Below, one piece after another: positions 3,862 to 64,000 of a stretch of DNA of 64,000 nucleotides. Under the pieces are notes generated by a model. The model saw only the letters and a program-made list of their open reading frames with translations, had not been told where the DNA came from and ran no database searches. The stretch comes from Schlesneria sp. (GTDB lineage Bacteria > Planctomycetota > Planctomycetia > Planctomycetales > Planctomycetaceae): positions 1 to 64,000 of the forward strand of contig JAQGHU010000039.1 of NCBI GenBank assembly GCA_028291515.1, written 5' to 3'. Both the position numbers and the translations under genes were made by a program. The stretch's first letter is position 1, and every line of letters begins with the position of its first letter.

Positions 3862-3887
3862 CCTTGCGCATCGCGCCTGGAGGTATC

Positions 3888-45845: not shown

Positions 45846-46946
45846 ATGCAGCGCCTGCTTGCGATGAGTAGTTTCGGGCTTCTGGTCTTGGTGGCGACCG
45901 CAGTCAATGCGGCGGAACCCACAACTTCGCACCGAAACGTCGTCTACATCACGTGGGATGGTTTCCGCTGGCAGGAGTTTTTCGGCGGAGCACAGGAGCT
46001 ATACATCAGCAAAGATGCCGGTGTCGCCGATGTGGACGGGTTGAAAAAGCGATTCTGGCGAGAGACGGAGCAGGAGCGACGCGAGACCCTGTTGCCATTT
46101 GTCTGGACGGTGATGGCCAAGCAAGGACAGGTCTTCGGCGATCAATCGAAGAACTCGATCGCCAAAATCCAGAACAAGCATAAATTCTCGTATCCCGGCT
46201 ACAGCGAGATGTTTTGCGGCTTTGCGGACGATGAACGCATCGCTTCCAATGGCAAGTTCCCGAATCCAAACGTGACGGTGCTAGAGTTCTTGAACGGTCG
46301 AACGGGATTCGAAGGCAAGGTGGCCGGGATCGCGACCTGGAATATCTTCCCGTTCATCTTGAATGAAGAGCGGGCCAAGATCTATGTCCATGCTGGCATC
46401 ACGCCGATTCCTGGAACCGAGTTGTCGGATCGACAGCACTTACTGAATGAGATGATCAAGGACACGGTTGTCCTGTGGCCGGACAACCAGATCGATTCCA
46501 TTACCATCCAGGCGGCTCGTGAGTACCTGATTCAGAAGAAGCCGCGCGTCTTGTACATCGGCCTGGGTGAGACCGACGAATGGGGACACGGTCGCCGCTA
46601 CGATCGCTATCTGAGCGCCGTCCACAGTTCGGATGATTTCTTGCGACGCCTCTGGGATTTGCTGCAAACTCTGCCCCAGTACAAAGACAATACGACGTTG
46701 ATCATTTCGCCGGACCACGGCCGTGGCGGAACGATTCGCGATTGGACCGATCACGGTGCCAAAGTCGAAGGAGCCGAGTTTGTGTGGATGACGGCGATGG
46801 GGCCACAAGTCCCGGCACTCGGTGTCCGCAGCGATGTCGAAGTGACACTCAGTCAGGTCGCAGCCTCAATCGCTCGCGCGGTCGGCGAAGACTTCAACGC
46901 GGCCAGCCCCAAGTCATCACAGCCTCATCCGGGGTTGTTCAAGTAG
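45846..46946 (+). CDS. Exported alkaline-phosphatase-superfamily protein
   Basis: 366 residues; RBS GGAGAA before ATG 45846; signal peptide about 1-22 (…VNAAEP). It belongs to the sulfatase/phosphodiesterase/alkaline phosphatase fold: NVVYITWDGFRWQEFF (Asp38 of the first metal site), KHKFSYPGYSEMF (probable nucleophile loop, Ser120), YIGLGETDEWGHGRRYDRY (Asp244, His248), LIISPDHGRGG (Asp290, His291) and WTDHGAKVEG (His303). The metal ligand set looks complete. Substrate unknown: could be a phosphodiesterase, phosphatase or phosphonate hydrolase. It stands alone; there is no sulfatase-maturase gene next to it. Confidence 0.78.
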   Translation: MQRLLAMSSFGLLVLVATAVNAAEPTTSHRNVVYITWDGFRWQEFFGGAQELYISKDAGVADVDGLKKRFWRETEQERRETLLPFVWTVMAKQGQVFGDQSKNSIAKIQNKHKFSYPGYSEMFCGFADDERIASNGKFPNPNVTVLEFLNGRTGFEGKVAGIATWNIFPFILNEERAKIYVHAGITPIPGTELSDRQHLLNEMIKDTVVLWPDNQIDSITIQAAREYLIQKKPRVLYIGLGETDEWGHGRRYDRYLSAVHSSDDFLRRLWDLLQTLPQYKDNTTLIISPDHGRGGTIRDWTDHGAKVEGAEFVWMTAMGPQVPALGVRSDVEVTLSQVAASIARAVGEDFNAASPKSSQPHPGLFK

Positions 46947-47684: not shown

Positions 47685-50444
47685 CTAGAATCGTCGTACC
47701 GGCCACCACAAACTGAAGTCAATTCTCCTCAGAGCAACGTCGAGAATGAACAGGATCAAAGCGGCGGTCGCCAAGTAAGGCCACAGAGGAGTCGTGCGCT
47801 GGACCGTGCGTGCTGCCAAAGCGGCCTCGCCGGCCGTCGCGCTTTTCGATGCTGTCGAGGACGCGGGCGCGAACAGATCTTCGGGAAGCGGGTTAAAGCG
47901 GCCATCTGTCGAATCAGCAAGAGACTTCAGCAAGTCGTTGTTCGTGGGATGCAGCCGCAGTTCATCGGGATAACCAACGATCAAGCCCCGTGTTTGCTGA
48001 TGTAGTAGCGTCCCACCTGCGGTCTTCTGAGTCAGATTGAGGTGATAAGCGCCAGACGCGGGAGTGTCGAATTCGGCGACGTAACGACCTGGGGCTGTTT
48101 GTTTCAGTTCGAGTTTCCGCTGACCGAGTTGTGGGTCGATAATCGTGGCCTCGGTGGTGGCTTGATTCAAGAATTTTCCGGCCGGGTCGATCGCATCCAT
48201 TGTGACGGTCGCTTTGCGACGATCCTGTTTCACGTCGACGATGACTCCCTTTACATCGTTCTTACGCATCGATTGCCGGATCACTTGTGCCCAGAACTTG
48301 CTGTAGCCAGGCCACGTCAGCCATTCGGCTCCCCAGCGGCTTTTGGCGTCTGAAGTGAAGGCGACTGTCGTTCCCAAGCCGTACCGCCACCAGGCCAACA
48401 GCGGATCGCCCGCTTCCGTTGCCAGGATCAGCTCGCACGTTGCCTTGGGGCGAGTGACCACATAGCCGAGCAGAAACGGGGCTGTTTCGAAATCGATATC
48501 GGCGAGTACCGGAGTGGGTCGCACGACTTGAGGGACGAATGGCTGTTCATTGATCGCGGATTTGCTGGCTGTCATTGTCTCTTTGGCGAAGATCTGCGGC
48601 AGCGAGCTGGGATCGAGTGCTTCAAAATACCTCCCCTGCCCGATCTTCGCAATTTCTTCCAGCACCTTGGAATCGCAACCCTCACCGACAGCGACCGTCG
48701 AACAGGTGATTCGAGCCGACGCCATGCTTTGCGCAATCCCCTCGAAGTCGCCTGGCGAGGAAATTCCGTCCGTCAGCATGATGACATGCTTCAACTTGGC
48801 AGTGGTCCCCACCAGTGTGTTGTAGGCTTCTTCCATCGCCGGGGCCATCGTGGTCCCGCCCCCTGCTTCGATGCGGCTGATATCGTCGATAATTCGAGCC
48901 TTATTGGCCGCCGACTGCATGTCGCTGACCCAGTAGAAATTGCCGTCGAAGGCGATGACGCCCAATTGATCACGCGGACCTAGCAATTCGGCCGCACTCT
49001 TCGCGGCCTCTTTGGCCATCTCAATCTTCTCGCCCCCCATCGACCCGGATTTGTCGATGACCAGCACCATCCCCAACGATGGTTTTTCCTTCTCTTTTTC
49101 GAAGTCGGAGCGAACGGGCAGAATTTCTTCGAGGACTGTTTTGTAGTAGCCACCCAACCCGAACGATTGATCGCCCCCCAGCATCATGAAACCGCCGCCC
49201 AGATCCTGAACATAAGTGCGGGCCAGTTCCATCTGACGCTGCGACAGGCTGGTTGCGGGAACGTTGGACAGGGCGAGCAGTTCATAGTTCTGCAGATCAG
49301 CGAGCGTGTCAGGCATGCCTTCGATCGGACGCACGTCAACTTCGATCTCTTCCTGCTGCAACGCCCAGACCAGTTGTTGAGCCAGCTTGGGATCGCTTTC
49401 GATCAGCAGCACGCGGGGTTTGCCCGTCGTGAAGACCAGCCCCGATTCCGTGTTGTTGTCGAGCAGCGTGTCGGTCTTCAGCCCGCCGATTTTGACCGTG
49501 TATTGAGCGAGTCGTTCGCCTGTGATGGATTGCTGAAACCGAAAGCGGTTCTCGCCCGATTTCAACTTACGATTCTCGCTGAGTACCTTGTGGGCTCCAC
49601 GAAATACCTCCACTAAACCTTCGTCTTCGTGATTTGAATTGATCACGACTTCGACATAGAACGGTTCTCCTTCGCGGACCTGCGCGGGGACTTCGACGGC
49701 CGCGACTTGCACTTCGGCATCGTCGCGAACTTTGAGCGGAATCGTGTCGATGGGGATTAGCGTTGACGATTTCGCAGCCTTCTCTCCCGCGCGGGCCGAC
49801 ACTGACTTCGCAACGGAGGCTGTTCCCAGCGCGGCTTGAAGTGCATCACCGATTGTCTGGTTTCCATCCGTCATGATGACAATGCGCGGGACGTAATCAG
49901 GCGGCATGGCCCCGGCTGCAGAGCGAATGGCAGCAGAGAGATCTGTCGCATTGCGATCCAAATCAACTCCTAATGAGTTGGGTGCTGTTGACCCCGCCGC
50001 GTTGATTGGTGTTGGTAATGCAAGCTTGGGACGTTCTTGTGAGAGTGATCCCGTCTGAGCAGCAAAGGGGAGGAACATCACCTTGTGAGCGGCACCACGC
50101 CCGTCGGCGAATGCTTTGTCGAGGTATTCATTGACTTGAGACTTCCGATCGGCGTCGGCTTTCTCTTTCGCAGCGGGATCCGCTTCGTCTTCGGCGACAC
50201 TCAAACTTTGATCAATCGCGACGATGACAAATTGCTGAGTCGTCGGCCGCAGCAGCGTCATCCCGCTGAGCGCGAGTGCCAGCAGGGAGACGATCACGCA
50301 GCGTGTCAGCAGCGACACCAGCAACTGACGTGGCGGGAAGTCAGACAGCGACCGACGGAAGTACCACACCAATAGTGGCACGACCACCAGTAGCGTGGCC
50401 ATCCACCACGGATGGATCAATTCCAGTGATAACGATTCGAGCAT
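47685..50444 (-). CDS. Double-VWA, amidotransferase-like membrane protein
   Basis: 919 residues from ATG 50444. Two membrane segments at about 12-28 and 44-62 precede an N-terminal VWA-like domain (D78-Q-S-L-S, MTD193GNQ). Then comes a beta-sandwich (about 240-340), a glutamine amidotransferase-like domain (PRVLLIESDPKLA ... GGGFMMLGGDQSFGLGGYY, about 343-435; no catalytic Cys visible), and a second VWA domain with a full MIDAS: D464-K-S-G-S, GGTTM, TDGISSPGDF. One more membrane segment near 890-908. This matches BatB-like proteins with fused amidotransferase-like domain. It is the last gene of the MoxR-DUF58-VWA-VWA operon. Confidence 0.85.
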   Translation of the reverse strand: MLESLSLELIHPWWMATLLVVVPLLVWYFRRSLSDFPPRQLLVSLLTRCVIVSLLALALSGMTLLRPTTQQFVIVAIDQSLSVAEDEADPAAKEKADADRKSQVNEYLDKAFADGRGAAHKVMFLPFAAQTGSLSQERPKLALPTPINAAGSTAPNSLGVDLDRNATDLSAAIRSAAGAMPPDYVPRIVIMTDGNQTIGDALQAALGTASVAKSVSARAGEKAAKSSTLIPIDTIPLKVRDDAEVQVAAVEVPAQVREGEPFYVEVVINSNHEDEGLVEVFRGAHKVLSENRKLKSGENRFRFQQSITGERLAQYTVKIGGLKTDTLLDNNTESGLVFTTGKPRVLLIESDPKLAQQLVWALQQEEIEVDVRPIEGMPDTLADLQNYELLALSNVPATSLSQRQMELARTYVQDLGGGFMMLGGDQSFGLGGYYKTVLEEILPVRSDFEKEKEKPSLGMVLVIDKSGSMGGEKIEMAKEAAKSAAELLGPRDQLGVIAFDGNFYWVSDMQSAANKARIIDDISRIEAGGGTTMAPAMEEAYNTLVGTTAKLKHVIMLTDGISSPGDFEGIAQSMASARITCSTVAVGEGCDSKVLEEIAKIGQGRYFEALDPSSLPQIFAKETMTASKSAINEQPFVPQVVRPTPVLADIDFETAPFLLGYVVTRPKATCELILATEAGDPLLAWWRYGLGTTVAFTSDAKSRWGAEWLTWPGYSKFWAQVIRQSMRKNDVKGVIVDVKQDRRKATVTMDAIDPAGKFLNQATTEATIIDPQLGQRKLELKQTAPGRYVAEFDTPASGAYHLNLTQKTAGGTLLHQQTRGLIVGYPDELRLHPTNNDLLKSLADSTDGRFNPLPEDLFAPASSTASKSATAGEAALAARTVQRTTPLWPYLATAALILFILDVALRRIDFSLWWPVRRF

Positions 50445-50480
50445 AAAAACGTCTCGTGTCAGGGACAATTCCCGTGAGCG

Positions 50481-52484
50481 TTAACTGATAACTCGTCGCT
50501 GGTACATCACCCATTCGAGCGTCGTCAAAACCAAGCCTGTCAACAGCAACCAGAACCAGACAGGTCGCGAACCAAGGCCCGCCAGGACAGGCGAAGCGGT
50601 GGTGCTATTCGCGAGTAGCTCTTCAGGCGGGCGAACATCCGACTCGGTGGCGCTCGCGAGATTGCAGGCAATTTCCAAGAGAGGTTCGTCTGTCGGTGTC
50701 TTGTCACTTGTCTTCGGTGCGATGGCCTTACCAAGATCTGCAGATCCCGGATCTTCGATGATGCTCCAGACGCCGCAATGGTCGAGCGGACCGATTGTCA
50801 TCCGCTCGATGGCTGGCAGGGTCTTCAGTTCTCCGGCGGGACTCTTCAACAATAGCGATGCGCTTTTGGCGGGGTGAGCAAAGTCGCTGCTGGAAATCGT
50901 CGCCAATGATCCCGCAGCCAGCGATTCTCGCAAGTCTTGCTTGTTTCCGGCGAACCAATGCAGCGCGTTGGCCACGGTGATCGGGAACGCCGTCCGAAGC
51001 GGCAGATCACCTTTATCGAGGTTCACCGTCAGCACCAGCACGCGTCCTTCGGGCCGGTTAACTGCGAAGAACAGAGGCTCCTTCGTCACCGCTTCAGCCA
51101 AGATCAGCGTCTGCTCAGGAAGGGTCGGGGTCAAGGAGCGGGCTTCGGGCATCAAGACATTGTCCATGCGGACGTGCGACATCAACGGACTGTCCTTGTC
51201 CTGCTTCGTCACGATCGGGTTGGCAATCTGCTCGCCAATGGCGAACAGATCGGTGGCGTTGGCGGGATCGATCACGAACACCTGGCCCGCAGGAAGCTTA
51301 TCTGGAGCCACGCGGTGATAGACCACAACGGTCCCGGCGGGGACGGTGGCGGGAGCTTCAGCAACTACGGTTAGTTTCACGAGCGGATTGACTTCGAAGA
51401 CTTTTTGCAGAAACAGATTGCCAGACGTGACGAGCAACACAGGTTGAATTTCACGTCGAGGTAACACAGCGGACGCGGTGTTATCGGCAGCCAGGGCATC
51501 GTCGTGCTTCAGCGTTGCCAGCAAGTGGCCTCCCAAAGCGGATGTCTTTTCGAAGACCTGACTCCATTTGCCGCCTGCGTCCAACTTCAAGGGAACGACA
51601 TCGATCGGTTCATCGTTCAAGTCAACTTCGAACCGACATTCGACCGGTTGATCGGATGCGTTCGTGACTTCCGCGAGGATCTCGTAGCCGAGGGGATCGA
51701 CCAGACTGCGGCGAACCTGGAATTGAGTGATGCCGACATTGGCGGCACGAGTTCCAATGATCTGCAGCTTGACCGGAGCTTGGGAGGTGGCATTGGAGAT
51801 TGGTGATGTGGCCGCCGCGTCCGTTGTGCCAGGGGGCTCACGCCCCCCGCTCAGCGGAGCAAGAGCGGAACTCAACTCTTCCACGCCACTGAATCGGCCA
51901 TCAGAAAAGACAACGACTTCCTGCTGCTTGCCGTCTTGTCGCTCACCCAACAATCGGCGAGCCAGCGCGACGGCATCGGCAACCTGCGATGGCCCATCGG
52001 TCGTCGCCAGAGATTGAACGGCGCTGCTGACTGTCTTCTGGCGAGACGTGAATCCGACGATGACTTGCGGCTGCGTCCCCGCGGCAACAAGCGCGAACTC
52101 GTCGCGGTGCCGCATCCCCGCGATCCACTGTTCTGCCTGACGTTTGGCCTCCGCGAGACGAGTCGGTTTGACATCCGTCGCATTCATACTCGCCGAGTTG
52201 TCGATGACAATCACAATCCGTCGAGCTGATCGCGCTTCCCAGAAGAAGTAAGGATCGGCGACAGCAAACGCCAACAGAGCCAACATGGCCAGTTGCAACA
52301 ACAGCGAAACCAAGTGCCGCAGTCGCTGCCAGATGGAACGCGGGTTCTGCTCTTCCAGCACCTGAGTCCAGAACATCACAGTCGAAACCGGCAACCGCCG
52401 CAATCGGATCTTCAAGATATAGAAGATGATGATCGGCACACCGAGCGCCAGCCACAACAACGAACCAGGGGATTCAAAAAACAT
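50481..52484 (-). CDS. BatA-like VWA membrane protein
   Basis: 667 residues from ATG 52484; the alternative TTG at 52538 has no RBS. Two N-terminal membrane segments (about 5-24 and 56-76) flank a basic loop; VWA domain 88-230 with MIDAS D95-N-S-A-S99 and FSDGRFSG. The rest is a beta-rich exported part with GATase-like fragments (VLLVTSGNLFLQKVFEV, RVLVLTVNLDKGDLPLRTAFPI) and a final membrane segment (PVWFWLLLTGLVLTTLEWVMY). BatA proteins are anchored in the inner membrane with the VWA in the periplasm. It is 60 bp from the DUF58 gene and 36 bp from the next VWA gene, so one transcript. Confidence 0.85.
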   Translation of the reverse strand: MFFESPGSLLWLALGVPIIIFYILKIRLRRLPVSTVMFWTQVLEEQNPRSIWQRLRHLVSLLLQLAMLALLAFAVADPYFFWEARSARRIVIVIDNSASMNATDVKPTRLAEAKRQAEQWIAGMRHRDEFALVAAGTQPQVIVGFTSRQKTVSSAVQSLATTDGPSQVADAVALARRLLGERQDGKQQEVVVFSDGRFSGVEELSSALAPLSGGREPPGTTDAAATSPISNATSQAPVKLQIIGTRAANVGITQFQVRRSLVDPLGYEILAEVTNASDQPVECRFEVDLNDEPIDVVPLKLDAGGKWSQVFEKTSALGGHLLATLKHDDALAADNTASAVLPRREIQPVLLVTSGNLFLQKVFEVNPLVKLTVVAEAPATVPAGTVVVYHRVAPDKLPAGQVFVIDPANATDLFAIGEQIANPIVTKQDKDSPLMSHVRMDNVLMPEARSLTPTLPEQTLILAEAVTKEPLFFAVNRPEGRVLVLTVNLDKGDLPLRTAFPITVANALHWFAGNKQDLRESLAAGSLATISSSDFAHPAKSASLLLKSPAGELKTLPAIERMTIGPLDHCGVWSIIEDPGSADLGKAIAPKTSDKTPTDEPLLEIACNLASATESDVRPPEELLANSTTASPVLAGLGSRPVWFWLLLTGLVLTTLEWVMYQRRVIS

Positions 52485-52544
52485 TGGAAATTGCTCTTGG
52501 ACGAAACTCACTGCGAACTTGCGTAAGTCGAGATTCAACGCTGA

Positions 52545-53420
52545 TCAACTGACCGCCCCTGCCGTTCGCATCATTCGCAGTATTAGATCTTCAAAGTCAA
52601 CTTCGTTGGTGGTCTGGGTACATCCCAAGCCGTATTTCTTGCCGTATCCCGCGACGCCCGCTTGGAAGTTATCGAAGACTTTGCGGTACTCTCGCAGGGC
52701 TCGTTCGGTGATGGTGACCTTACGGACCGAGTCGGTTTCCGCATCGACCAATTCGATCTCGCCGAGCATTTGCGGGCGTGCTTCGGCGGGGTCATGGATC
52801 TGAACCAGATGTGGTTCATAGGTACGATGCCTGAGGAGATCCAGGCCGCGTTCGTAGCCGTTCGGATCAAACAGATCACTGATGACGACGGCCAGACCGC
52901 GACGTTGTGGCCGGAGGGCGAAGCTGTTGACGATGCGACCCAGATTCGTATCGGTCCCCTGCGGTTCGAGTTTCTCCAGAAAGCGTAGCAGAGACAGGAT
53001 GCGGTCTTTGCCGCGAGTCAGTGGGAAGTCGGCAATGATTTCCTGCGAGTAGGCGATGATGCCGATGCGATCGAGATTTGACAGGGCGATATAGGCCAAG
53101 GCCGCTGTGACCTGGCGAGCCAGATCAAACTTAGGCGGATTGCCGAACCCCATGCTGCGCGAACAATCGATCAGGAAGTAGACATGCAAGTCTTCCTCTT
53201 CTTGGAATCGCTTCAGCAGCAGGTCGCCATGTCGCGCGTAGACGTTCCAGTCAAGGTGCCGGAAATCGTCGCCGGGAGTGTATTCGCGATGGTCGGCGAA
53301 TTCGATGCCACCACCCATCTGCTTCGTCCGCCGTTGAGCCAGAATGGACCCGCGGAAAACTCGGCGCGAAATCAGCGAGAGATATTCGAGCTTCTTCAGG
53401 AAATCGCCGTCGAACAGCAT
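52545..53420 (-). CDS. DUF58-family protein of MoxR system
   Basis: 291 residues; RBS GGAGAG before ATG 53420. Standard DUF58 domain (AEYREYTPGDDFRHLDWNVYARHGDLLLKRFQEEEDLHVYFLIDCSRSMGFG): here IEFADHREYTPGDDFRHLDWNVYARHGDLL is intact, followed by a VWA-like part with DCSRSM. DUF58 proteins act with MoxR-type AAA+ ATPases and VWA proteins in the assembly or activation of membrane and periplasmic complexes. It is separated from the MoxR gene by one inserted gene (53453-54943), which is unusual. Confidence 0.9.
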   Translation of the reverse strand: MLFDGDFLKKLEYLSLISRRVFRGSILAQRRTKQMGGGIEFADHREYTPGDDFRHLDWNVYARHGDLLLKRFQEEEDLHVYFLIDCSRSMGFGNPPKFDLARQVTAALAYIALSNLDRIGIIAYSQEIIADFPLTRGKDRILSLLRFLEKLEPQGTDTNLGRIVNSFALRPQRRGLAVVISDLFDPNGYERGLDLLRHRTYEPHLVQIHDPAEARPQMLGEIELVDAETDSVRKVTITERALREYRKVFDNFQAGVAGYGKKYGLGCTQTTNEVDFEDLILRMMRTAGAVS

Positions 53421-53452: not shown

Positions 53453-54943
53453 TCAACGCGCCGTCGATGTCTCAAGCGATTCTTGCAAGGTGATGGTGAT
53501 GTGAGTCGACATGCCACTGGCTAACACGGGGGAGGCAAGTTGTTCAACACTCTTCGCGGCGACGGACCAGCCAGCGGAAGTCACGTGGAACCAGGCGACG
53601 TGCAACGGAAGATCGCGAAGTGTCGCTTCGCCTGACGAATTCGATATTGCTTCGAATCGCCCCGTTTTCTCACGGAAGTGCTCGATGTCGGCCTGCGGAT
53701 TAGCCAAAGAAGCTCGTGTTGTCCGCTGATAGTTGCAATAAGCAGGCTCCGAATTGCCGATTCCCCCAATTCGAAGGCTGGCTCGAACTCTGACGCCACT
53801 GACTGGATGTCCTACTTGATCAACAAAGGTCAGGATACATGAGGATGCGGGTTCCATTAGAAGGACCGGCTTCATTGTGTCGCGGCCCAGGCGGAACAGT
53901 TGCGGATAGCTATTTCCTTCTCGGATTTCAGGTTCCGGACCGTAACGAGTTGCGGCCGCAAGGAACTTTTCGATCTCAACGGGACGGGACACATATCCAT
54001 CACAGTAGGCCAAGAGTTCTAGATCGGCCATCGGCGGCAACGATGCGAACTCGAAAGAGCCATCGGCGCGAATATCGGCCCAGTCTTCCCACGCCAGTTG
54101 GCTGAACTCTGGGCGTTCGCTCATCGCGTCGCCTGGCAGGCAAACGCGGGCAAAGACGCGGCCGTTCCGGACAGGACGCGGAACTGCCGCATCGAGTTGT
54201 CCTTCCACTCGCGCGCCCGCCGACACCTTTGCGATCATCTCGGTAGGATCGTCACCCTCAGCATGAACCGGCATGATCATTGGCCAACTAAATTGAGGCG
54301 GACCATCCCCCGGAAGATGGACAATCCAACATCGACTGCACGCAGAATAGAAGCCTGCCGACTGAAACAGGCCTTCATCAGTCTTGGTCCAACGGACATT
54401 ACTCAGAGGAAAATTGAAAACCGCAGACAGGTCGTCCAGCGGAATGCCAGGGTCCGTCGAATACGCACCGACACGAATCTTGCGAGTTCGATACATCCCC
54501 GCTTGTCCATCCGCTTCGCCGACTATCTTGGGCTGCGCGGGATTTCGCTCTCCGCAAAAATAGTTGTCCGTGGAGAACTCAGGGTGATCACAACGAAATA
54601 TGAACCCCACGATCTCGTGAGACGTCAGTCCCGCACCACCGACCGCGTACTTGGGCATTTCAAATGAAGCGAATCCCTCATTGTCGCTAACTGGCCGCGG
54701 GATCGGTCCCCAGGCGTCATACGACCATTCGGACACGCGGGCCGGACTGGCAATCCGCATTCCCATCGGGGCGTACAGGCGAATGACTGCACCTTCGATC
54801 GGCTTTCGATCCTTCCAATCCACCACTTTGATACGCCAGATTCGCCACTCGATATTCGCTGGGCGCAAGGCGTTTGCTGGCTCATCGCTGCCATAGGTCG
54901 CAGCCCCTGCCAAGAACACCACCATGGTGAAAACAATTCTCAT
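53453..54943 (-). CDS. Exported protein with carboxypeptidase-regulatory repeats
   Basis: 496 residues from ATG 54943; signal peptide about 1-19 (MRIVFTMVVFLAGAATYG). The mature part has several beta-sandwich segments of the Big/carboxypeptidase-regulatory type (IEGAVIRLYAPMGMRI ..., GRVFARVCLPGDAMSERPEFSQLAWEDWADIRADGSFEFASLPPMADLELLAYCDGYVSR, and a last one with GHPVSGVRVRASLRIGG ... GEATLRDLPLHVAWFHVTSAGWS). It lies between MoxR and DUF58 and reads in the same direction, so it may be co-transcribed. No catalytic motif seen. Its role in the system is unknown. Confidence 0.65.
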   Translation of the reverse strand: MRIVFTMVVFLAGAATYGSDEPANALRPANIEWRIWRIKVVDWKDRKPIEGAVIRLYAPMGMRIASPARVSEWSYDAWGPIPRPVSDNEGFASFEMPKYAVGGAGLTSHEIVGFIFRCDHPEFSTDNYFCGERNPAQPKIVGEADGQAGMYRTRKIRVGAYSTDPGIPLDDLSAVFNFPLSNVRWTKTDEGLFQSAGFYSACSRCWIVHLPGDGPPQFSWPMIMPVHAEGDDPTEMIAKVSAGARVEGQLDAAVPRPVRNGRVFARVCLPGDAMSERPEFSQLAWEDWADIRADGSFEFASLPPMADLELLAYCDGYVSRPVEIEKFLAAATRYGPEPEIREGNSYPQLFRLGRDTMKPVLLMEPASSCILTFVDQVGHPVSGVRVRASLRIGGIGNSEPAYCNYQRTTRASLANPQADIEHFREKTGRFEAISNSSGEATLRDLPLHVAWFHVTSAGWSVAAKSVEQLASPVLASGMSTHITITLQESLETSTAR

Positions 54944-55177: not shown

Positions 55178-56170
55178 CTACGCTTGCGCTGCCTTCAAGA
55201 TCCCCTCGACAACCGTATCGGTTTGGATTCCTTCTGCCTGACCTTCGAAGTTTAGGATGATGCGATGTCGCAACACTCCTAGCGCGACCGCCTTCAGATC
55301 GTCTCGAGCGACATGATAGCGTCCATCCAGAATCGCCAGAATTTTTGCAGCGAGGATCATGGCTTGAGCACCGCGAGGGCTGCTGCCGTATCTCACATAT
55401 TTCCGCGTGATCTCCGGAGCCGTCGCGTGATCGGGGTGAGTCGCCAGGACCAGCGAAATTCCGTAGCGACGAACGTCGTCCGCGATGGGAATCTGTCGAG
55501 CCAACTGCGACATTGCCAAGACACGCTCACCGACCAAGACGGGTTGAGCTCGTGGCGTCGTCGCTTCAGTGGTTCGATCGAGAATCACTTCCAACTGTTC
55601 GAGCGTCGGGAATTTGACGATGAGCTTATTGAAGAACCGGTCTAGCTGGGCTTCTGGCAGCGGATAGGTTCCTTCCATTTCCAGCGGGTTCTGGGTCGCC
55701 AGCACGAAGAATGGTTCGGGCAGCTTGAACGTCTGGCCGGCGATGGTGACCGTGTGTTCCTGCATTGCCTCCAACAGTGCCGACTGCGTTTTTGGTGTCG
55801 CGCGATTGATTTCGTCAGCGAGCAGAATGTTGGTGAAGATCGGGCCCTGCTGAAATTCGAATTTCTTCTGCTTGTCGGGCGTCTCCAGCACGACGTTCGT
55901 GCCCAGCAAGTCGGCGGGCATCAGGTCGGGGGTGAACTGGACGCGATTGAACTTCAGATGCAGGGCGTCGGCCAATGTTCGGACTAGCATCGTCTTACCC
56001 AGGCCCGGAACGCCCTCCAGCAGCACATGTCCGCCGCCGATCAAGCAGGTCAGCGTCGCCTGCACGATCTCGTCGTTGCCGACAATCACCTTGCCGATTT
56101 CGTCGCGAAGAGTTTTGAAATCGGCCCGGAACTGATCGCACAGTTGCTGCGTCTCTGCTGTCGTCGACAT
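55178..56170 (-). CDS. MoxR-family AAA+ ATPase
   Basis: 330 residues from ATG 56170; the open frame to 56434 is not coding. Walker A G53-V-P-G-L-G-K-T60, Walker B ILLADEINRA (about 113-121), sensor 1 in FFVLATQNPLEMEGTYPLPEAQLDRFF and the MoxR-type C-terminal lid (DDLKAVALGVLRHRIILNFEGQAEGI). The length is normal (about 320-335). MoxR proteins act as chaperones with DUF58 and VWA proteins. It is the first gene of the minus-strand operon; divergent from the TPR gene at 56501. Confidence 0.93.
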   Translation of the reverse strand: MSTTAETQQLCDQFRADFKTLRDEIGKVIVGNDEIVQATLTCLIGGGHVLLEGVPGLGKTMLVRTLADALHLKFNRVQFTPDLMPADLLGTNVVLETPDKQKKFEFQQGPIFTNILLADEINRATPKTQSALLEAMQEHTVTIAGQTFKLPEPFFVLATQNPLEMEGTYPLPEAQLDRFFNKLIVKFPTLEQLEVILDRTTEATTPRAQPVLVGERVLAMSQLARQIPIADDVRRYGISLVLATHPDHATAPEITRKYVRYGSSPRGAQAMILAAKILAILDGRYHVARDDLKAVALGVLRHRIILNFEGQAEGIQTDTVVEGILKAAQA

Positions 56171-56500
56171 GCGTTGAAACTCCGGTGACTTAGTGAGCCG
56201 CTCCGGACGATGCCCGAGCGGTGAATCGACACTGATGGGGACTGAAGATGTTTGTACAACGAGGTTCGCGAGATTCTGTCGCTGCACGCTTCCCAACGCA
56301 AGCGGATCAAGACAGAATGCCTGACGCATCTCGCCGCACGATCGCGGCCAACAAGAGGGGAACGATGCCCGGCTTCGTTCCCTGATGACGCGGAGCGTCG
56401 TCCATATTCCAATCCTTTCGATCGTTGATATCACTACCGACTTCAGGCCGAACCCAGACGGGCTGCTGGCCTTTTTCTAAAAGCATCCGGAGTTCCTCCC
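56171..56500. other. Divergent regulatory region between MoxR and TPR genes
   Basis: 330 bp containing the promoters of both the MoxR operon and the giant TPR gene, so the two could be co-regulated. No palindromic operator stands out by eye. Confidence 0.5.
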
Positions 56501-59500
56501 ATGGTGTTCCTTCCCACTCGACCGCGAACGTGGATGGTTCTGGCTTGGACGCTCAGTCTGGCGTATTCGTTCCCGGTGATCGGTCAAGAGGCCGATCCCG
56601 AGGAAGTGCAGGCGGTGACGACGAACTCCAAGTTCGTGACGGTCCTGGAAAAGAATCCTCGCCGCGGCACAGCCCTCGACAAGGTTTATGGCTTCTATGT
56701 CGAACGCGGGACACTGGACGGTTTCATCAAGACTTATCGCGAAAGGGCAGCGGCAACGAAGGGAGCCGCCGCATCTTCGTCATGGATGATCGTCGGCTTG
56801 ATGGAATCGCTGCGCGGTCAAGATGCCGCATCGGTCGAAGCGTTCAGCCAGGCTGAGGAACTGGACGACAAGAACTATCTTTCGCCATACTACCTGGGAC
56901 AAGCGCTGGTTTTAGTCGGGCAACCCGACAAAGCCGCTGAGGCACTCGAACGAGCCATCCAGCGCAAACCGGCACCGGCCGATCAACTGGAAGTGTTCCA
57001 AACGCTGGGCCGGGTCTATCAGCGAGCCCAAAAGAATGATAAGGCTCTTGAAGTCTGGAACCGACTGGAAAAGCAGTTCCCCAATGACGCGCGTGTGCAG
57101 GAACAGATCGCCACGACGCTGTTGGAAGAGAACGAATTTGCGGCCGCGTTGCCGCGGTTTGAGAATTTGGCCAAGACATCGAAGGATAAATATCGTCAGT
57201 CGCAATTCCAAATGGAGGCGGCCGAGATCAAAGTTCGACTAGGCAAGTCGGACGAAGCGATCAAGGAATTCGAGAAGCTGCTCGGGCAACTGAACCCCGA
57301 CAACTGGCTGTTCCGCGAAGTTCGACGGCGAATCGAAAACGTCTACCTGCGTACCGACGATCAGGCGGGTTTGATTGGGTACTACGAAGCGTGGACGAAA
57401 AAGAATCCTGAAGATCTGGAAGCGATCTCGCGACTGGCTCGCTTGCTGGCAGGTCTGGGTCGCGGTGCTGAAGCCCAGTCCTGGCTCGAAAAGGGATTGA
57501 AATCGGCTCCATCGCGAAAGGAACTCCGAAACGCCCTGATCGCGCAATTGGTGTATGAACAGAAATTTCCCGAAGCAATCGCGCAGTATGAGCAACTCGA
57601 TAAGTACGAGCCCAATAATCCTGACACGTTGCGCGACTGGGGTCGGCTGATCCTGAAAGATACGAAACGCGACGAGGCAACTCGAAAGAAGGATGCCGGG
57701 ACCGTCTGGCGTCGACTGACGGCCGCCAAGCCCAAAGATCCCCTGATCGCTTCGCAAGTCGCCGAGCTATTCCGTCATGCCGAAATGATCGACGATGCAT
57801 TGGCCCTGTATCGCAAGTCCATTGAACTCGCTCCAGAATCGGCCCAATACAAGGAATATCTGGGCGAGTACTTCCATTCACTACAACGTAAAGACGAAGC
57901 GATGGCCACTTGGCGGCAGATGGCCGAGGGGAAGGCCAAAACAGCCGCGAATCTGGCGCGACTCGCCGAAGTTCTCGCGGGATTCGGCTACCTGAGTGAA
58001 GCCGTCGATTCGAATGCCGAAGCCTGCCAGCTGGATCCCAAAGACATCAATCTGCAGATCAAGCAGGCCGATCTGCTGTCTCAAGCGGAAAAGCATGACG
58101 AAGCACTCAAGCAATTGGCTGTTGTCCAGAAGCTGGCCGCCAATGATGAAGAGCGAGAAGCCTGGCTGCAGCGTGAGTTGAAAGAACTGCAGACGTTGGA
58201 GCAACTGAAGGATCGCATCACCGCGGCCCGCATGGAACTCGATGCCCTCACTGCCCCGACAACGGACAAGGAGAAAGCGGCACGATCAGAGAAGTGGTTC
58301 TGGCTGGCACGGGCCTATGAATCGGAGCGACAACTGAAGGAAGCCGCGGAAGCGGTTTCGAAAGCGGCTGACTTGGCACCGCAATCAGTTCCAATCCTGA
58401 TGTCAACGGCGCGTATTCTGGAAGCCCAGCAGAATCTGTTGGCCGCTGTTGAAACTAACACGAAGCTGGCTGCAATCGATCGTCGCTACCGGACAGAATA
58501 CCTGAAGAAAGTGGCGCAGTTGGAAGTCCAGTTGGGTCGTCGCGAAAAAGCGATCCAAGCAGGTCGCGATGTCCTGGCCGCTGCGCCCGGCAACCCAGAA
58601 CTCTACGAGTTCTTCTCGCAGCTTTGTTTCCAACTGGGCGAAAACGAAGAAGGGCTGCAAGCCTTGCGGCGGTCTGTTCGCGTGAACCCGACCGAGCCCA
58701 AGGGGCTGCTACTGCTGGCATCGGCATTGGGTGAGCAGTTTCGCACGGGCGAATCGATCGAACTGTATTGGCGAGCGTTCGACAAAGCCAACAATCTTGA
58801 AGACCGACTGTCGGTCGTGCCGCGGCTGACGGAGTTGTACCTGCAAACAAATCAATTCGACCGATTGCTGGAACGATTGGAGAATCGTCGTCGCGAGCCA
58901 AACCAACAGCGGGAAATGACCATTTGTATCGCGCAGGCTTACCAATCAGCGGGTGACGACGGCAACGCGCGACAAGAGTTGGAAAAGCTGCTGACGGAAG
59001 ACACGCGTGACACTCAGTTGCTGCAGCAACTGGTCAAGCTCTGCGAACAGGACGGCGATCTGGAAGCCGCAATCCGCTTCCAGCAACAGATGAACAAAAT
59101 CGCTCCCGGCAAGGAAGGGACGATGCGTCTGGCACAATTGCTGATGAAATCTGGTGATTCCGAAGAGGCGACTGCTTTGCTGACGCGAGCAACCGCCGAC
59201 GAAAAAGATCCCGAGCAGCTGATCAAGTCGGTCGACTCGCTGTTGACTCAGAAGAACTACGATCAGGTGCTGGGCATTCTGGAACGGTTAGTCCGCGACC
59301 AACCCAAGAACTGGGAGTTACTCTATCGCCAAGGAGTCGCCCTCGCGTCGACGAAACCCGAAGAAGCGACCCGTCGGTTCGACACCATACTGGCGATGAA
59401 CATCAATGATGATGAACAGACATTGATGGCGAAAAACCAGGCGAAAAAGAACACGGGGCGGCAGCGAAGTCCTGCCGTCCAATTTCGCGAGATGAACCCG

Positions 59501-62500
59501 TTCATGCAACGCCTGCAATATACGCATACCATCCGTCAGACCGTTGGACTGGACCAGAATAACTACTACAACTCTGGTTATGCGCAACAGCAACCGTTCT
59601 GGGCTCCGCACGATTTCGGAACGACCAGACTGGCCAGCTTGGCCTGGTTGCAACTGTTCGCCAAAAATGCCGGCAAAGAAGAGGATTTCTTGAAGCAACA
59701 CCGCGCGGCCGCGGAGAAATCGACGGATCGTCGCACCACTATCGATACCTATTACCTGGCAGCATTGAGGAACGATAGCAAAGAGCAGTATGAGATTCTG
59801 AAGAAGCTGTCGCAGCAACCTGGAGCTGACATCGGCATTAAGTCGACGTATCTGACTCTGCTTGGTTCGCGTGGCGGTCCTCAGGTCGCCGCCGTCGTAA
59901 ACGAGGAGACCGGTGAGCGAGAAATCAAGCTCGACCCACTGGATAAGGAGGAACTCGAACACGTCCTGGCGATCTACAAAGAGCTTGACGATGCCACATC
60001 GATGATGAACTACGGCCAGACTTTTCTGGAGGTGGTCGCCGCAGAACTCAAACGGGCCGGCCGCACCGAAGATGCCGACCAGATGTTTCAGCAGACTTTG
60101 CAGGCCGCGAAGTCCCCCGTGCAGATTGCGTCAGTCATGGCGGGAACGATTCAACGTGGTGACTACGCAACCACGATGAAACTGCTCGATCGACTGGTCG
60201 AACTAAAATCGGAAGCTTCTGCAAATACGACATCTGGCGGCTACAACTATGCGCAGTACGTTTCCACACCACAGTATCAAGCGCAGATCCTGGCGCAATT
60301 GATGGCCAAACGCGCCCAGAAGAAGGAACTCGGCGATGTCCTGGGACTGTGGGATCGGTATCTGGCAATCGCGGTCAGCAGACACGAGGCGGATAAGAAG
60401 CTGACGGCCGCCACAAGAAAACGAAACGCCAGCAATAACCCGTACGGCTCCCAAGGCTACTTTTATATCTGGCGAGGCAACAACCAGCAGTACGAGCAAG
60501 TCGACTTCCCCACTCCGAATGCCATCTATGATCATTCGTCCCTGCAGATGTTGCGGCAGACATTCGCGGTCTACAAAGATGTTGATTCGACAAAAAGTCT
60601 GATTGATCATTTCCAGCAGAAGTTAAAAGACGACAAGACCCCGGCGCAGCAACAAATCTTCTGGAAGCTGGGGCTCGGCTATCTCTTCTGGTGGAACGAC
60701 GACAAGGACGATTCCCTGACCGTACTGACGGAAGCCGCCAATTCGCTGGCCGGCGATGAAGAGATGGCGTTTGAGCTGGCTCGACTGCACGAGAAACGAG
60801 GAGATCCCCAGGAGGCATTGGCGATCATCGAGGCGCTTCCGGCCGCTGATCAGCAAACGATGCAAAAGCGTGAGATCGCCGCGTTGCGGCTGTCCGTGAA
60901 TAGCGGAAACATCGATCGCGCGCGGACCGCTGCCGAACGGTTGTTCGGTCTGCGACTCGATTCCAATCTGCAGATCCAACTCGCCAGACAAATGCATCAG
61001 TTGGGAATGCACGAACAGGCGGAAGCGGTGCTGTCTCGTGCGGGACGCCAGGCCGGCAACAAAACCGATGTCCTGATGAATCTGATGCAGCAGTATCAAT
61101 CACAAGGTAAGAACGACGTGGCGACCCAAATCGCTCATCAATTGCTGCGACGATCTGCTGGTACAGCGGCTCAGTACGCATTGAATAGCGGACGGCGTTC
61201 AGGTCGCGATGACAGTGGAGCACGCCAGCAAGCGCTGCAGGTCTTGAAACGATCGGGCAAGCTGCCGGAAATGACCAAGAAGGTCGAAGATCAACTGGCG
61301 CATTCACCGAAGTCTCAGAAGCTGATCGAGACGCTGATTGAGTATTACACGGCCGCAGACAATTCCAAGAAAGTGGCCGAATTGTCGGCGAAATACGCTG
61401 AAACGAAGGGAGACGATCCGCAATTCCGCTATCAGTTGGCGATGCAACTGGTTCGCGACGGCAAACACAAAGAGGCACTGGAACACTTTAAGGTCTCTCT
61501 CAAAAAAGATCCTCGCCTGCTGCGCAATGGGTACTGGGAGATTCAGAATGCGTTTGAGAATGCCGACAAACTGGATGATCTGGCGACTCTCTACGAAGAA
61601 ATCGACCTGAAGTCGTTCCGACAAAGCCCCTACGAACTGACAAACCTCATCAGCAATATGTCACGGCGCGATAAGACGAAGGATCGATCGATTTCGCTGT
61701 TCAAGAAAGCCTGGGCGGATCTGCCGGACCAACGGGCGCAATTGCTCTCTAACCTGAACAGCGATGTCCTCTGGAACATGCCTGAAATCTACGACTACGC
61801 ACGTCAGGGCATTATTCCGACGGAGACATCGCTCGCTCAAACAGGCGCGTGGACAGGATTTGGCAGCGTTCAGAGCTGGGGCAGCGAAGGGAAGATGACA
61901 ACCCTGCTAAGCCGTCTCCTGACCATGGCGGCGCAGTCGAAAAAACTGGACGCACTGGCCACTGAGATTACAGAAGCTCGTACCAAATTAAAGAATTGGC
62001 AAGCGGGTGAACCGCTGCTCGCCATGATCGATTTGCGTCGAGGTCGAGTCGACGAGGGCAAAGCGGTTTTTGAAAAGCTGTTGCCTACCATGAAAGGGGT
62101 CCAGCAGGTCGGCTACTACACGCATTGGGAGATCGCTCAGGAACTGATGGCTCATGAATCCTGTGTCGACCTGGCCATTCTCTATCTTGAAGCCGCGACC
62201 AAAGAACAAAGTTTGATGACGGGGAACGAATTCACTTATACGCCCGGAAAAGCGCTCGTGAACTTGTACCGCCAACGAGGACGAAAAGACGATGCGCGAC
62301 GCGTCATCCTGAAGGCCATCAATGACAAGACAACTGGCAACTATGGAAACAGAGAATACGAGGTCTATCGAAAGCTTCGAAATACGATCGCGCTCGGTAA
62401 AGAAGTACGCACGCTGGGCTACCCTGTCGATGCGATCCGCCTGTATCAGGAGGCACTCTCGAGAGGCGAAGACATGGTCACGGCGCAGCGCTATGGCGGC

Positions 62501-64000
62501 GACAACATTAAGAACGAGTTGCAAAACGGATTCGAAGCCGCAATGAAGGATTTGCAACCGGAGACGCTGCCAGAATTACTGACCGGATCATTGGGAGCCG
62601 ATGGCAAAGAAGCAGCGCCGGTCGATCTCGTACTGTTAGTGGAATCTCGCGATCTCGACAAAGCCCGCATGACGAGTGCGCTCGGTCGGCTGCTGGCAGA
62701 GCTTATCAAGAAGCCGGGCATGCTGCCTAAGACACGGGACGCGATTGCCGATGTCGTTTCGAAGCGTCCCGAAGATCTGTCGGTGCTCATCCTGGATGTC
62801 CAACTGGCGATTTCCACCGGTGATACGAAGACTACCGACAAAGTTCTCAAGCAATTGACAGAGGTTCTCGCCCATACACCTCTAGAGCCACAACCCGCCA
62901 AAGGTGGATTCACCGCGAATCAGAAAGCAGTGGCATTGCGGGAAACGGCACTGTGGCTGCTGGCTCGTGATTGCCTCAAGCAGGACAAGTTGCGAGACAG
63001 TGGAGAAATTTTGGCGGCACGGGCCTTGGAGGCATCGCGCCGGAACTCCGATAACGGTTACACGATGGCGATCCTCCGGGAATGGGGTCAAATCGCACTG
63101 GACGCAGGCGACAAGGAGACTGCTGAAAAGCGCTGGACCGAAATGCTTGATCTTGTCATTCCGAAGACGCCAACCAAAGCCAAGGATAAAGAAGAAAAGA
63201 AGACAAGCTGGCGCGAGCGGAGCGTTCTTCAAGAGGGAAACGAGCCGCTGCATTTGACCCGGTGGGAGCAGATGCTGGCCCCGGTGATTGCTTCGCAATT
63301 GGCCGTTCCAACACTTTCGATCCGGTCAGCCAACGCAACTCCATCAACGGGTGGGACAAAAGGCAACGTTGTCACGTTGGTCCAATTCGAACAGGCCGCT
63401 CAGATCGCGAAGCTCGCTGCGGAGCACGGTTTGACTGAACTCTCCGTCAAAGCGATCGCACAAGCCTTACACGCGGGACCACCTGTTGAGATGATGCAGG
63501 GAGATCAGGCGAGCTCTTCTGGCTTTCCGACGATCGCGCAGCCGCAAGCCAGTGAACAATCGCCGGTGCTGCAGAAAGTCGAGCAACGTCTGACGGCCGT
63601 CGCAGCCCTCTGGCAGAAGAAAGCGGTCGATGATGTCGTTATCTATGAAGTGCTGAAGCACGCGGTGCTACCGGAAACTCGTCCTTTGGAGCTGTTTCTG
63701 TATCCACGTCCGTTGGCCACGAACCCCAACCAGACGCCGCAAAGCGTCGGGTTATTGCTGGTGCAGGCGGCAGTCCGGGCGAAAAAAGTCGACGACCTGA
63801 ACGAAGCGATCGCGACGCGGTTAAAGCAACCGCTGGGAGAATTGGCCGGGCGAGTCCTGGCGACGCAACTGGCACTGGCAACCAACGACACTGCGGCTGT
63901 TCATCAGCAATTGGAGTTGCTCAGCACCCGACTGAAGCAAGATTCATTGCAGTATTCCAGTGAACTGGCCTGTCACGTCGCTGTTCCTGCATTGAGCATG
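56501..64000 (+). CDS. Giant exported TPR-repeat protein, partial (no stop in window)
   Basis: An open frame of 2500 codons from ATG 56501 to the window end with no stop; I spot-checked the reading frame at eight places. RBS GGAG, eight bases upstream. Signal peptide about 1-28 (TWMVLAWTLSLAYSFPVIGQEA). The mature part is a long series of TPR-type helical repeats, such as YYLGQALVLVGQPDKAAEALERAIQRKP and LALYRKSIELAPESAQYKEYLGEYFHSLQRKDEAMATW. Low-complexity inserts rich in Tyr, Asn, Gln and Gly lie near residues 1014-1040, 1245-1260 and 1310-1330, and another near 1779. Divergent from the MoxR gene and probably part of the same system, as a scaffold in the periplasm. The true length is unknown because the gene continues beyond the window. 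Confidence 0.9.
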   Translation, partial: MVFLPTRPRTWMVLAWTLSLAYSFPVIGQEADPEEVQAVTTNSKFVTVLEKNPRRGTALDKVYGFYVERGTLDGFIKTYRERAAATKGAAASSSWMIVGLMESLRGQDAASVEAFSQAEELDDKNYLSPYYLGQALVLVGQPDKAAEALERAIQRKPAPADQLEVFQTLGRVYQRAQKNDKALEVWNRLEKQFPNDARVQEQIATTLLEENEFAAALPRFENLAKTSKDKYRQSQFQMEAAEIKVRLGKSDEAIKEFEKLLGQLNPDNWLFREVRRRIENVYLRTDDQAGLIGYYEAWTKKNPEDLEAISRLARLLAGLGRGAEAQSWLEKGLKSAPSRKELRNALIAQLVYEQKFPEAIAQYEQLDKYEPNNPDTLRDWGRLILKDTKRDEATRKKDAGTVWRRLTAAKPKDPLIASQVAELFRHAEMIDDALALYRKSIELAPESAQYKEYLGEYFHSLQRKDEAMATWRQMAEGKAKTAANLARLAEVLAGFGYLSEAVDSNAEACQLDPKDINLQIKQADLLSQAEKHDEALKQLAVVQKLAANDEEREAWLQRELKELQTLEQLKDRITAARMELDALTAPTTDKEKAARSEKWFWLARAYESERQLKEAAEAVSKAADLAPQSVPILMSTARILEAQQNLLAAVETNTKLAAIDRRYRTEYLKKVAQLEVQLGRREKAIQAGRDVLAAAPGNPELYEFFSQLCFQLGENEEGLQALRRSVRVNPTEPKGLLLLASALGEQFRTGESIELYWRAFDKANNLEDRLSVVPRLTELYLQTNQFDRLLERLENRRREPNQQREMTICIAQAYQSAGDDGNARQELEKLLTEDTRDTQLLQQLVKLCEQDGDLEAAIRFQQQMNKIAPGKEGTMRLAQLLMKSGDSEEATALLTRATADEKDPEQLIKSVDSLLTQKNYDQVLGILERLVRDQPKNWELLYRQGVALASTKPEEATRRFDTILAMNINDDEQTLMAKNQAKKNTGRQRSPAVQFREMNPFMQRLQYTHTIRQTVGLDQNNYYNSGYAQQQPFWAPHDFGTTRLASLAWLQLFAKNAGKEEDFLKQHRAAAEKSTDRRTTIDTYYLAALRNDSKEQYEILKKLSQQPGADIGIKSTYLTLLGSRGGPQVAAVVNEETGEREIKLDPLDKEELEHVLAIYKELDDATSMMNYGQTFLEVVAAELKRAGRTEDADQMFQQTLQAAKSPVQIASVMAGTIQRGDYATTMKLLDRLVELKSEASANTTSGGYNYAQYVSTPQYQAQILAQLMAKRAQKKELGDVLGLWDRYLAIAVSRHEADKKLTAATRKRNASNNPYGSQGYFYIWRGNNQQYEQVDFPTPNAIYDHSSLQMLRQTFAVYKDVDSTKSLIDHFQQKLKDDKTPAQQQIFWKLGLGYLFWWNDDKDDSLTVLTEAANSLAGDEEMAFELARLHEKRGDPQEALAIIEALPAADQQTMQKREIAALRLSVNSGNIDRARTAAERLFGLRLDSNLQIQLARQMHQLGMHEQAEAVLSRAGRQAGNKTDVLMNLMQQYQSQGKNDVATQIAHQLLRRSAGTAAQYALNSGRRSGRDDSGARQQALQVLKRSGKLPEMTKKVEDQLAHSPKSQKLIETLIEYYTAADNSKKVAELSAKYAETKGDDPQFRYQLAMQLVRDGKHKEALEHFKVSLKKDPRLLRNGYWEIQNAFENADKLDDLATLYEEIDLKSFRQSPYELTNLISNMSRRDKTKDRSISLFKKAWADLPDQRAQLLSNLNSDVLWNMPEIYDYARQGIIPTETSLAQTGAWTGFGSVQSWGSEGKMTTLLSRLLTMAAQSKKLDALATEITEARTKLKNWQAGEPLLAMIDLRRGRVDEGKAVFEKLLPTMKGVQQVGYYTHWEIAQELMAHESCVDLAILYLEAATKEQSLMTGNEFTYTPGKALVNLYRQRGRKDDARRVILKAINDKTTGNYGNREYEVYRKLRNTIALGKEVRTLGYPVDAIRLYQEALSRGEDMVTAQRYGGDNIKNELQNGFEAAMKDLQPETLPELLTGSLGADGKEAAPVDLVLLVESRDLDKARMTSALGRLLAELIKKPGMLPKTRDAIADVVSKRPEDLSVLILDVQLAISTGDTKTTDKVLKQLTEVLAHTPLEPQPAKGGFTANQKAVALRETALWLLARDCLKQDKLRDSGEILAARALEASRRNSDNGYTMAILREWGQIALDAGDKETAEKRWTEMLDLVIPKTPTKAKDKEEKKTSWRERSVLQEGNEPLHLTRWEQMLAPVIASQLAVPTLSIRSANATPSTGGTKGNVVTLVQFEQAAQIAKLAAEHGLTELSVKAIAQALHAGPPVEMMQGDQASSSGFPTIAQPQASEQSPVLQKVEQRLTAVAALWQKKAVDDVVIYEVLKHAVLPETRPLELFLYPRPLATNPNQTPQSVGLLLVQAAVRAKKVDDLNEAIATRLKQPLGELAGRVLATQLALATNDTAAVHQQLELLSTRLKQDSLQYSSELACHVAVPALSM

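Follow-up and report, generated by a model that had tools for sequence, protein, structure and literature searches.

The window analysed here, a stretch of 64,000 nucleotides from a Schlesneria genome (G000), raises the question of what an uncharacterised giant gene, still open where the window ends, is doing back to back with genes for a MoxR ATPase and VWA proteins. A first, sequence-only reading of this region had proposed an exported TPR protein that belongs to the adjoining MoxR/VWA system and acts as its periplasmic scaffold, in the manner of the smaller TPR proteins of Bacteroidetes Bat operons. We followed the gene to its end, modelled parts of its protein and examined its surroundings and its company in other planctomycete genomes.

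Extent of the giant gene

The giant frame begins at 56501 on the plus strand and is unfinished at the window edge (56501..64000, residues 1-2500 of 4521, the probably exported TPR/alpha-solenoid part), and the same contig, C54 (140,835 bases), carries the remainder, with DUF1581/DUF1583 beta-sandwiches beyond the window. The earlier observation of at least 2500 uninterrupted codons was borne out when the frame was extended to its stop codon at C54:70066 (L002:14067): it comprises 4,521 codons with 0 internal stops, and its base composition by codon position (GC) is coding-like along its entire length. Relatives with frames of ~3,800-4,546 codons were found in many other assemblies, among them a single-contig genome (G003; 4,177 codons) and the complete named genomes of Pan216 (L140; 3,808) and Limnoglobus roseus (L131; 3,875), all measured from stop to stop, so that the actual proteins are slightly shorter. 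A frameshift or assembly error, which would have undone the sequence-only reading, was looked for both by frame extension and in the other assemblies; none was found, and such an artefact is ruled out by the unbroken 4521-codon frame and the comparable frames elsewhere.

Shortened or broken giant frames were seen in two MAG contigs (L143, 1,469 codons; L145, 77 codons) and are possibly assembly errors. Besides, G021 has a shortened copy with an internal TAG beside its MoxR operon (L170, G021:C1:2900000-2919900), which may be decaying, and a second copy of 4,266 codons elsewhere in the genome. Of 17 downstream stretches from relatives (L040-L056, including short ones), one had a match to the gene located 3' of the giant in the window's genome, which is of the isopropylmalate dehydrogenase type and was therefore taken as unrelated to the giant.

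N-terminal segment, TPRs and modelled solenoid

The giant is probably exported, judging from a hydrophobic N-terminal segment. The signal peptide of the earlier reading corresponds to a feature that is kept in relatives: the segment scored above 1.6 in 62 of 66 relatives, compared to 48 of 330 internal control stretches from the same proteins, and at a cut of 2.0 the counts were 59/66 and 10/330. Internal stretches were used as the control because the signal-peptide score picks the best start codon. No lipobox was found, there being no cysteine within the first 40 residues.

A TPR profile search, which had been suggested as a check, was run with Pfam; numerous TPR families matched in the N-terminal portion of the giant, followed by DUF1581, DUF1583_N and DUF1583. 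A TPR-consensus search (threshold 22) gave 17 matches, against a mean of 0.38 in shuffled sequences, and 15 of these begin within residues 92-904; canonical TPRs are found at residues ~90-940 only. Structure models, also suggested earlier, cover residues 1350-2500 and 2885-4075. The first of them (AlphaFold2, 30 aligned sequences; pLDDT 79.5, pTM 0.63) is a nearly all-helical hairpin solenoid, for which Foldseek placed TPR-type solenoid chains of the Ski, IFT-A, Paf1 and NatA complexes at or near the top, with TM-scores that were low for both whole models (multi-domain in one case, solenoid in the other), so that fold class alone is claimed. Residues 1350-2500 are predicted from this model to form a divergent TPR-like alpha-solenoid. 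The repeated TPR-like helices noticed in the window thus stand as canonical repeats up to about residue 940 and as a modelled divergent solenoid, not as canonical TPRs, across 1350-2500.

Among NCBIfam families, the TPR part is most like TIGR02917 (PrsT / PEP-CTERM TPR lipoprotein). Membership of this family was rejected, the score of 174.8 bits being below the cut-off of 312.2 bits, and the giant differs from PrsT in having no lipobox.

Predicted C-terminal beta-sandwiches

Pfam assigned DUF1583_N to residues 3065-3211 and 3687-3832 of the giant and DUF1583 to the region from residue 3839. The second model was built for the stretch of the relative L087 that matches giant residues 2885-4075, with 92% identity (pLDDT 82.4); it contains two pairs of beta-sandwiches with a helical stretch between them, plus a fifth sandwich. 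By VIA-align, this fifth sandwich resembles a GH43 accessory sandwich (Z 16.4, 3.3 A, 182 residues), followed closely by GH16 enzymes and L-type lectins, and model residues 602-946 resemble a 3-keto-glycoside eliminase (Z 14.3, 2.6 A, 166 residues). The VIA-align list mostly covered model residues 969-1181, and the remaining sandwiches were judged by DSSP, Pfam and the 3-keto-glycoside eliminase row. ExDxxE is the catalytic motif of the GH16/laminarinase type; it is absent from the sandwich part, its sole match in the giant being at residue 30, outside the domains, which speaks against a GH16-type enzyme for the ConA-like domains. In the models the sandwiches look like the lectin type, for which binding is likelier than cutting.

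This lectin/ConA-like C-terminus differs in length among relatives, and its DUF1583 part is optional, since three MoxR-linked copies (L144, L147 and L153) stop near 2,250-2,320 residues. It also occurs at loci with no MoxR match (L187, L188; G006:C240 and C276). PF20407 (DUF1583_N) is present at two loci only in G000. The second, on contig C79 (L036, G000:C79:25000-44999), encodes a 1,904-residue DUF1581/1583 protein, with no TPR by Pfam, which closes a same-strand cluster including MoxR, DUF58, BatA-like, DUF4175 and VWA/GATase genes. MoxR, DUF58, BatA-like and DUF1583 matches in the same order as on C79 were observed at G006:C212, and this order was not found within the stretch read at G011:C99. 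The lectin-like part has therefore come together with MoxR-VWA systems in two distinct arrangements, yet is not confined to them. DUF1581 and DUF1583, which are practically absent from the open-access searchable literature, gain both a fold and a context here.

Genes divergent from the giant

Outward from the giant, the minus strand of the window carries genes for a MoxR AAA+ ATPase (55178..56170; PF07726 1.6e-64, Walker A present), a putative exported protein (53453..54943; a CarboxypepD_reg-like match below cut-off), a DUF58 protein (52545..53420; PF01882 4.5e-46, no TM segment, a D-C-S-R-S MIDAS-like motif), a BatA-type VWA membrane protein (50481..52538; PF07584 and VWA_2, 3 hydrophobic segments, MIDAS-like DNSAS) and a VWA + GATase1-like membrane protein (47685..50468; 2+1 hydrophobic segments, two DxSxS motifs). 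The divergent adjacency of the giant and the MoxR/VWA genes, on which the first reading was built, is thus confirmed. The listed MoxR frame begins at 56434, but many homologues align just from ~residue 83-89, so that MoxR probably starts at a conserved Met at 56170, leaving a divergent intergenic region of 330 bp (56171..56500). No sigma-70-like sites were found in this spacer, a search that is little informative for planctomycetes. The putative exported protein between MoxR and DUF58 was present, among the loci tested, only in the close relative G011 (L031 and L088 represent one and the same contig), and is probably accessory. A sulfatase/metalloenzyme-like gene lies just past the cluster (45846-46946).

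In each of the two VWA proteins, the N-terminus carries two hydrophobic segments and the C-terminus one, and the positive loops lie opposite the VWA side; by the positive-inside rule, the VWA domains are predicted to be periplasmic. This agrees with the topology reported for the Borrelia homologue BB0173, whose VWA domain faces the periplasm (PMC5700661).

Conservation of the neighbourhood

For the named loci, one genome per species was scanned, and the best 80 of 130 passing loci, with titles all from Planctomycetota, were taken. This set is non-random: Schlesneria MAGs are over-represented and some assemblies contribute two loci. L145 was left out because of its broken frame, and 79 loci were counted. 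With linkage defined as a MoxR orthologue of more than 300 bits within the stretch, the giant was linked in 46 of these 79 loci (drawn from the best 80 of 130), 43 of them divergent and three downstream and co-directional (L134, L146, L162); L137 was counted as linked although its MoxR is 6.5 kb off. The median giant-MoxR gap in divergent loci is ~420 bp. In 25 loci no MoxR was found although 2.5 kb or more of sequence was available upstream, and eight others without a MoxR match had less than 2.5 kb upstream and were scored undecidable. Where divergent loci had at least 7.5 kb upstream (n=29), DUF58 was present in 25, and BatA and VWA/GATase as well in 24. The five shorter clusters consist of four from Schlesneria with a split cluster and L137, which is ended by the contig end. 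In the first relatives examined, a MoxR orthologue stands beside the giant even at 43-46% identity over its first 1,050 residues (L030, L034), and in L032 it lies ~6.5 kb away.

Seven of the 25 unlinked loci are Schlesneria second copies with a linked copy in the same assembly. In the genomes of the remaining 18, a search found one close DUF58 orthologue each (18/18, >365 bits; G328 and G339 appear to repeat G190 and G314). In the 13 genomes whose DUF58 surroundings were read, MoxR, DUF58 and BatA always occur together (13/13), with VWA/GATase in 12 and the giant adjoining in three; the giant is far from the operon in several genomes. On a tree made by a quick method, with one very long outgroup branch and hence open to a loose reading only, the linked state spans nearly all main branches, and unlinked loci are scattered tips or small groups. 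Within the genus Schlesneria, six genomes (G001, G002, G003, G005, G006 and G007; L020-L033, L092, L172-L177) have the cluster split over three places with all parts kept, namely the giant with MoxR, DUF58 alone, and BatA with VWA/GATase; G004 was too fragmented to score. Some genes (at L030, L204, L206 and L220) were seen by tblastn only, because long antisense frames had hidden them from the ORF lists.

At four Rhodopirellula/Stieleria-type loci in which the giant is unlinked to MoxR (L157, L158, L159, L161), a Ser/Thr-kinase-like match of 32-34% identity was observed ~1 kb upstream of the giant on the opposite strand (4/4 loci).

Co-occurrence across genomes

The giant was counted at E ≤ 1e-40 and, in a sample of 294 genomes of the phylum, a close DUF58 at E ≤ 1e-80. 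Among 40 relatives, 18 have both the giant and DUF58, none has DUF58 only, two have the giant only and 20 have neither; weak giant matches in G008, G034 and G038 (E 4.5e-12 to 9.3e-11) were left uncounted. The two giant-only genomes, G009 (in fragments) and G013, contain giant-like TPR frames. A VWA/GATase orthologue (>700 bits) is present in exactly the 18 genomes with the giant and DUF58, and a BatA orthologue passes 1e-60 in 17 of them, the remaining one (G019) showing BatA by tblastn at a contig end. In the 294-genome sample, which includes G000 and overlaps with the 40 relatives, DUF58 was detected in 12 genomes, the giant in 17 and both in 12 (Fisher p ~9e-18); related genomes are not independent, so that Fisher values are descriptive and the genus-level count in the 40 relatives (nine genera with both, 15 with neither) is safer. 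A close DUF58 is missing in 282 of the 294 sampled genomes, and the set is therefore not essential to the phylum.

The five giant-only genomes of this sample (G047, G048, G055, G118 and G239) are distant, and were counted so because their DUF58 genes (~35-40% identity) fall below the 1e-80 cut. In all of them except G047, MoxR, DUF58, BatA and VWA/GATase follow a giant of ~2,940-3,130 codons on the same strand. In G047, a 2,232-codon frame and another, unassigned one of 1,591 codons precede MoxR, DUF58 and BatA, and VWA/GATase was not found at this cluster. A profile made from four of these distant giants retrieved the window's giant at 2.9e-94, plus two more genomes. In G157, the giant, MoxR, DUF58, BatA and VWA/GATase are all on one strand; in G087, where the giant was found by the profile, the surroundings are ended by contig ends. 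In total, six distant lineages were found to carry a co-directional giant-MoxR-DUF58-BatA cluster, which includes VWA/GATase in five of them. At four distant loci (L197, L198, L200, L205), a gene of ~370-550 codons with no Pfam match was observed between the giant and MoxR.

Lack of a conserved MoxR/VWA neighbourhood in relatives had been named as what would speak against the sequence-only reading. What we found is a neighbourhood conserved in 46/79 loci and a near-perfect co-occurrence, and these, together with the distant clusters, bear out its claim that the giant belongs with the MoxR/VWA system. We regard it as very probable that the giant is a component of the MoxR-DUF58-BatA-VWA set.

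Proposed role and alternatives

As a whole, the explanation we favour, with reasonable though far from full confidence, is that the giant serves as a dedicated exported component, or periplasmic scaffold, of the planctomycete MoxR-DUF58-BatA-VWA system. Its observed basis consists of length, domains, neighbourhood, co-occurrence and distant gene order, and from this basis we infer cellular place, physical contact, ligand and remodelling. A periplasmic scaffold would be the best mechanism, with the place suggested by the N-terminal hydrophobic segment and the positive-inside topology. The giant would be exported by Sec, and its TPR/alpha-solenoid (perhaps as long as 2,900 residues) may form a ribbon in the periplasm, docked to the VWA (MIDAS) domains that the BatA-type and VWA/GATase membrane proteins would expose there, and the C-terminal ConA/lectin-like sandwiches might touch glycan or another envelope ligand. 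On the cytoplasmic side, MoxR and DUF58 would act as an ATP-driven chaperone assembling or remodelling the trans-envelope complex. A point against this mechanism is that a cytoplasmic MoxR would have to act on a periplasmic ribbon. Further points against it are the two relatives with giant-like frames and no DUF58 orthologue (G009, G013), the distance between giant and operon in several genomes, the optional DUF1583 part and the presence of DUF1583 at loci without MoxR.

The main rival to the scaffold is that the giant is a client, that is, a surface or S-layer-like adhesin or a polysaccharide-capturing fibre whose folding, export or assembly is driven by MoxR/VWA. We consider this unlikely, though it deserves to be taken seriously: it would suit the variable lectin/ConA-like C-terminus, and the large DUF1581/1583 protein of the second system on C79 has no TPR by Pfam. 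PMC5177795 also assigns more than 90% of giant genes to surface proteins or PKS/NRPS. However, it is the TPR part that is more widely kept, and L198, the only distant giant that was scanned with Pfam, has TPR/ARM-type families only and still stands in the cluster. Moreover, TPR solenoids typically act as scaffolds, not as adhesins.

The resemblance of the sandwiches to GH43 accessory sandwiches, GH16 enzymes, L-type lectins and a 3-keto-glycoside eliminase, together with the sulfatase/metalloenzyme-like gene just past the cluster, could also point to polysaccharide handling, in which the giant would be a periplasmic holder of glycans or enzymes, serving uptake and degradation, with MoxR/VWA as its activators. 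We think this improbable: ExDxxE is missing from the sandwich part and no glycoside hydrolase was found among the 11 scanned proteins. Far less probable still is that the set is a MoxR-vWA ternary system serving conflict or defence. Such systems have been described, planctomycetes included (PMC7159879), and the window's MoxR matches bpMoxR at 38.0 bits (cut-off 27), second to AAA_3 at 216 bits; however, the only PADLOC match was a weak one of MoxR to mad8 (18.8 bits), both the giant and the VWA proteins resemble membrane or exported proteins, and no beta-propeller or effector domain was detected by Pfam. A chance neighbourhood or long-frame artefact, for which no supporting point was found, is refuted by the co-occurrence and gene-order tests and by sequence conservation over the compared parts, and its probability is negligible.

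Beyond the scaffold itself, one may speculate, at rather long range, about a planctomycete-specific trans-envelope machine, in which periplasmic VWA domains would link an ATP-driven MoxR/DUF58 core to a solenoid ribbon, perhaps tens of nanometres long, tipped by glycan-binding sandwiches. It might serve an unusual envelope with a large periplasm, budding and polysaccharide capture, and the small TPR proteins of Bat systems would then be reduced ribbons. MoxR-VWA systems occur widely and have no settled role; here an extra, very large and probably exported part tracks the set almost perfectly. The giant is likely a missing part of a widespread, poorly understood bacterial system. An uncharacterised giant gene thus becomes a testable component, and it provides a handle on what VWA proteins bind.

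Comparison with known systems

Bat systems of Bacteroidetes and Spirochaetes consist of MoxR, DUF58, BatA/BatB (VWA), BatC/BatE (TPR) and BatD. The planctomycete set shares with them a MoxR AAA+ ATPase beside DUF58, and a BatA-type membrane protein (N-terminal aerotolerance domain and VWA), and it comes with a protein that has TPRs; to this extent the earlier comparison with Bacteroidetes Bat operons holds. It does not extend to identity of the two systems. BatD (PF13584) had no match in the whole genome G000, in a search whose control finds BatD in 2 of 14 genomes, including Bacteroides ihuae. The candidate counterpart of BatB has a VWA domain fused to a GATase1-like region, and the NCBIfam Leptospira Bat models score far under their cut-offs. 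The giant's TPRs follow a signal-like N-terminus as part of a component of ~2,200-4,500 residues, the long forms of which carry ConA-like domains, and BatC/BatE are not known to have lectin-like domains; at 4,521 residues the window's giant is indeed far larger than these, as had been anticipated. In addition, the planctomycete TPR gene is divergent from, or ahead of, the other genes. By its sequence features, the set is partly of Bat type and is not a classical Bat system, with BatD absent, a far larger TPR part and lectin-like domains.

According to PMC3557215, experiments had shown no specific function for the Bat proteins, and their VWA and TPR domains are proposed to help build a large complex; PMC5700661 likewise states no clear function. 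MoxR-vWA ternary conflict systems, planctomycetes included, are described in PMC7159879 (eLife 2020), which proposes that VWA domains capture a peptide and MoxR releases it in an altered form. Our set is like these in its MoxR + VWA core with a further component and in a MoxR above the bpMoxR cut-off; the further part here would be an exported giant TPR protein, and no VMAP, iSTAND, FtsH or beta-propeller was found among the cluster proteins by Pfam and PADLOC scans.

No title describing the giant TPR-lectin family was found in open-access literature searches, and a term search of PMC8567305 gave 0 matches. With the planctomycete giant genes of PMC5177795 and PMC12288469, the gene shares a length of more than 13 kb in a planctomycete, and Pan216, the subject of PMC12288469, has a member of the family (L140). 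The accessible parts of these two papers deal with counts, sizes and a few domains and not with this giant family, whereas here a conserved partner system is named for it.
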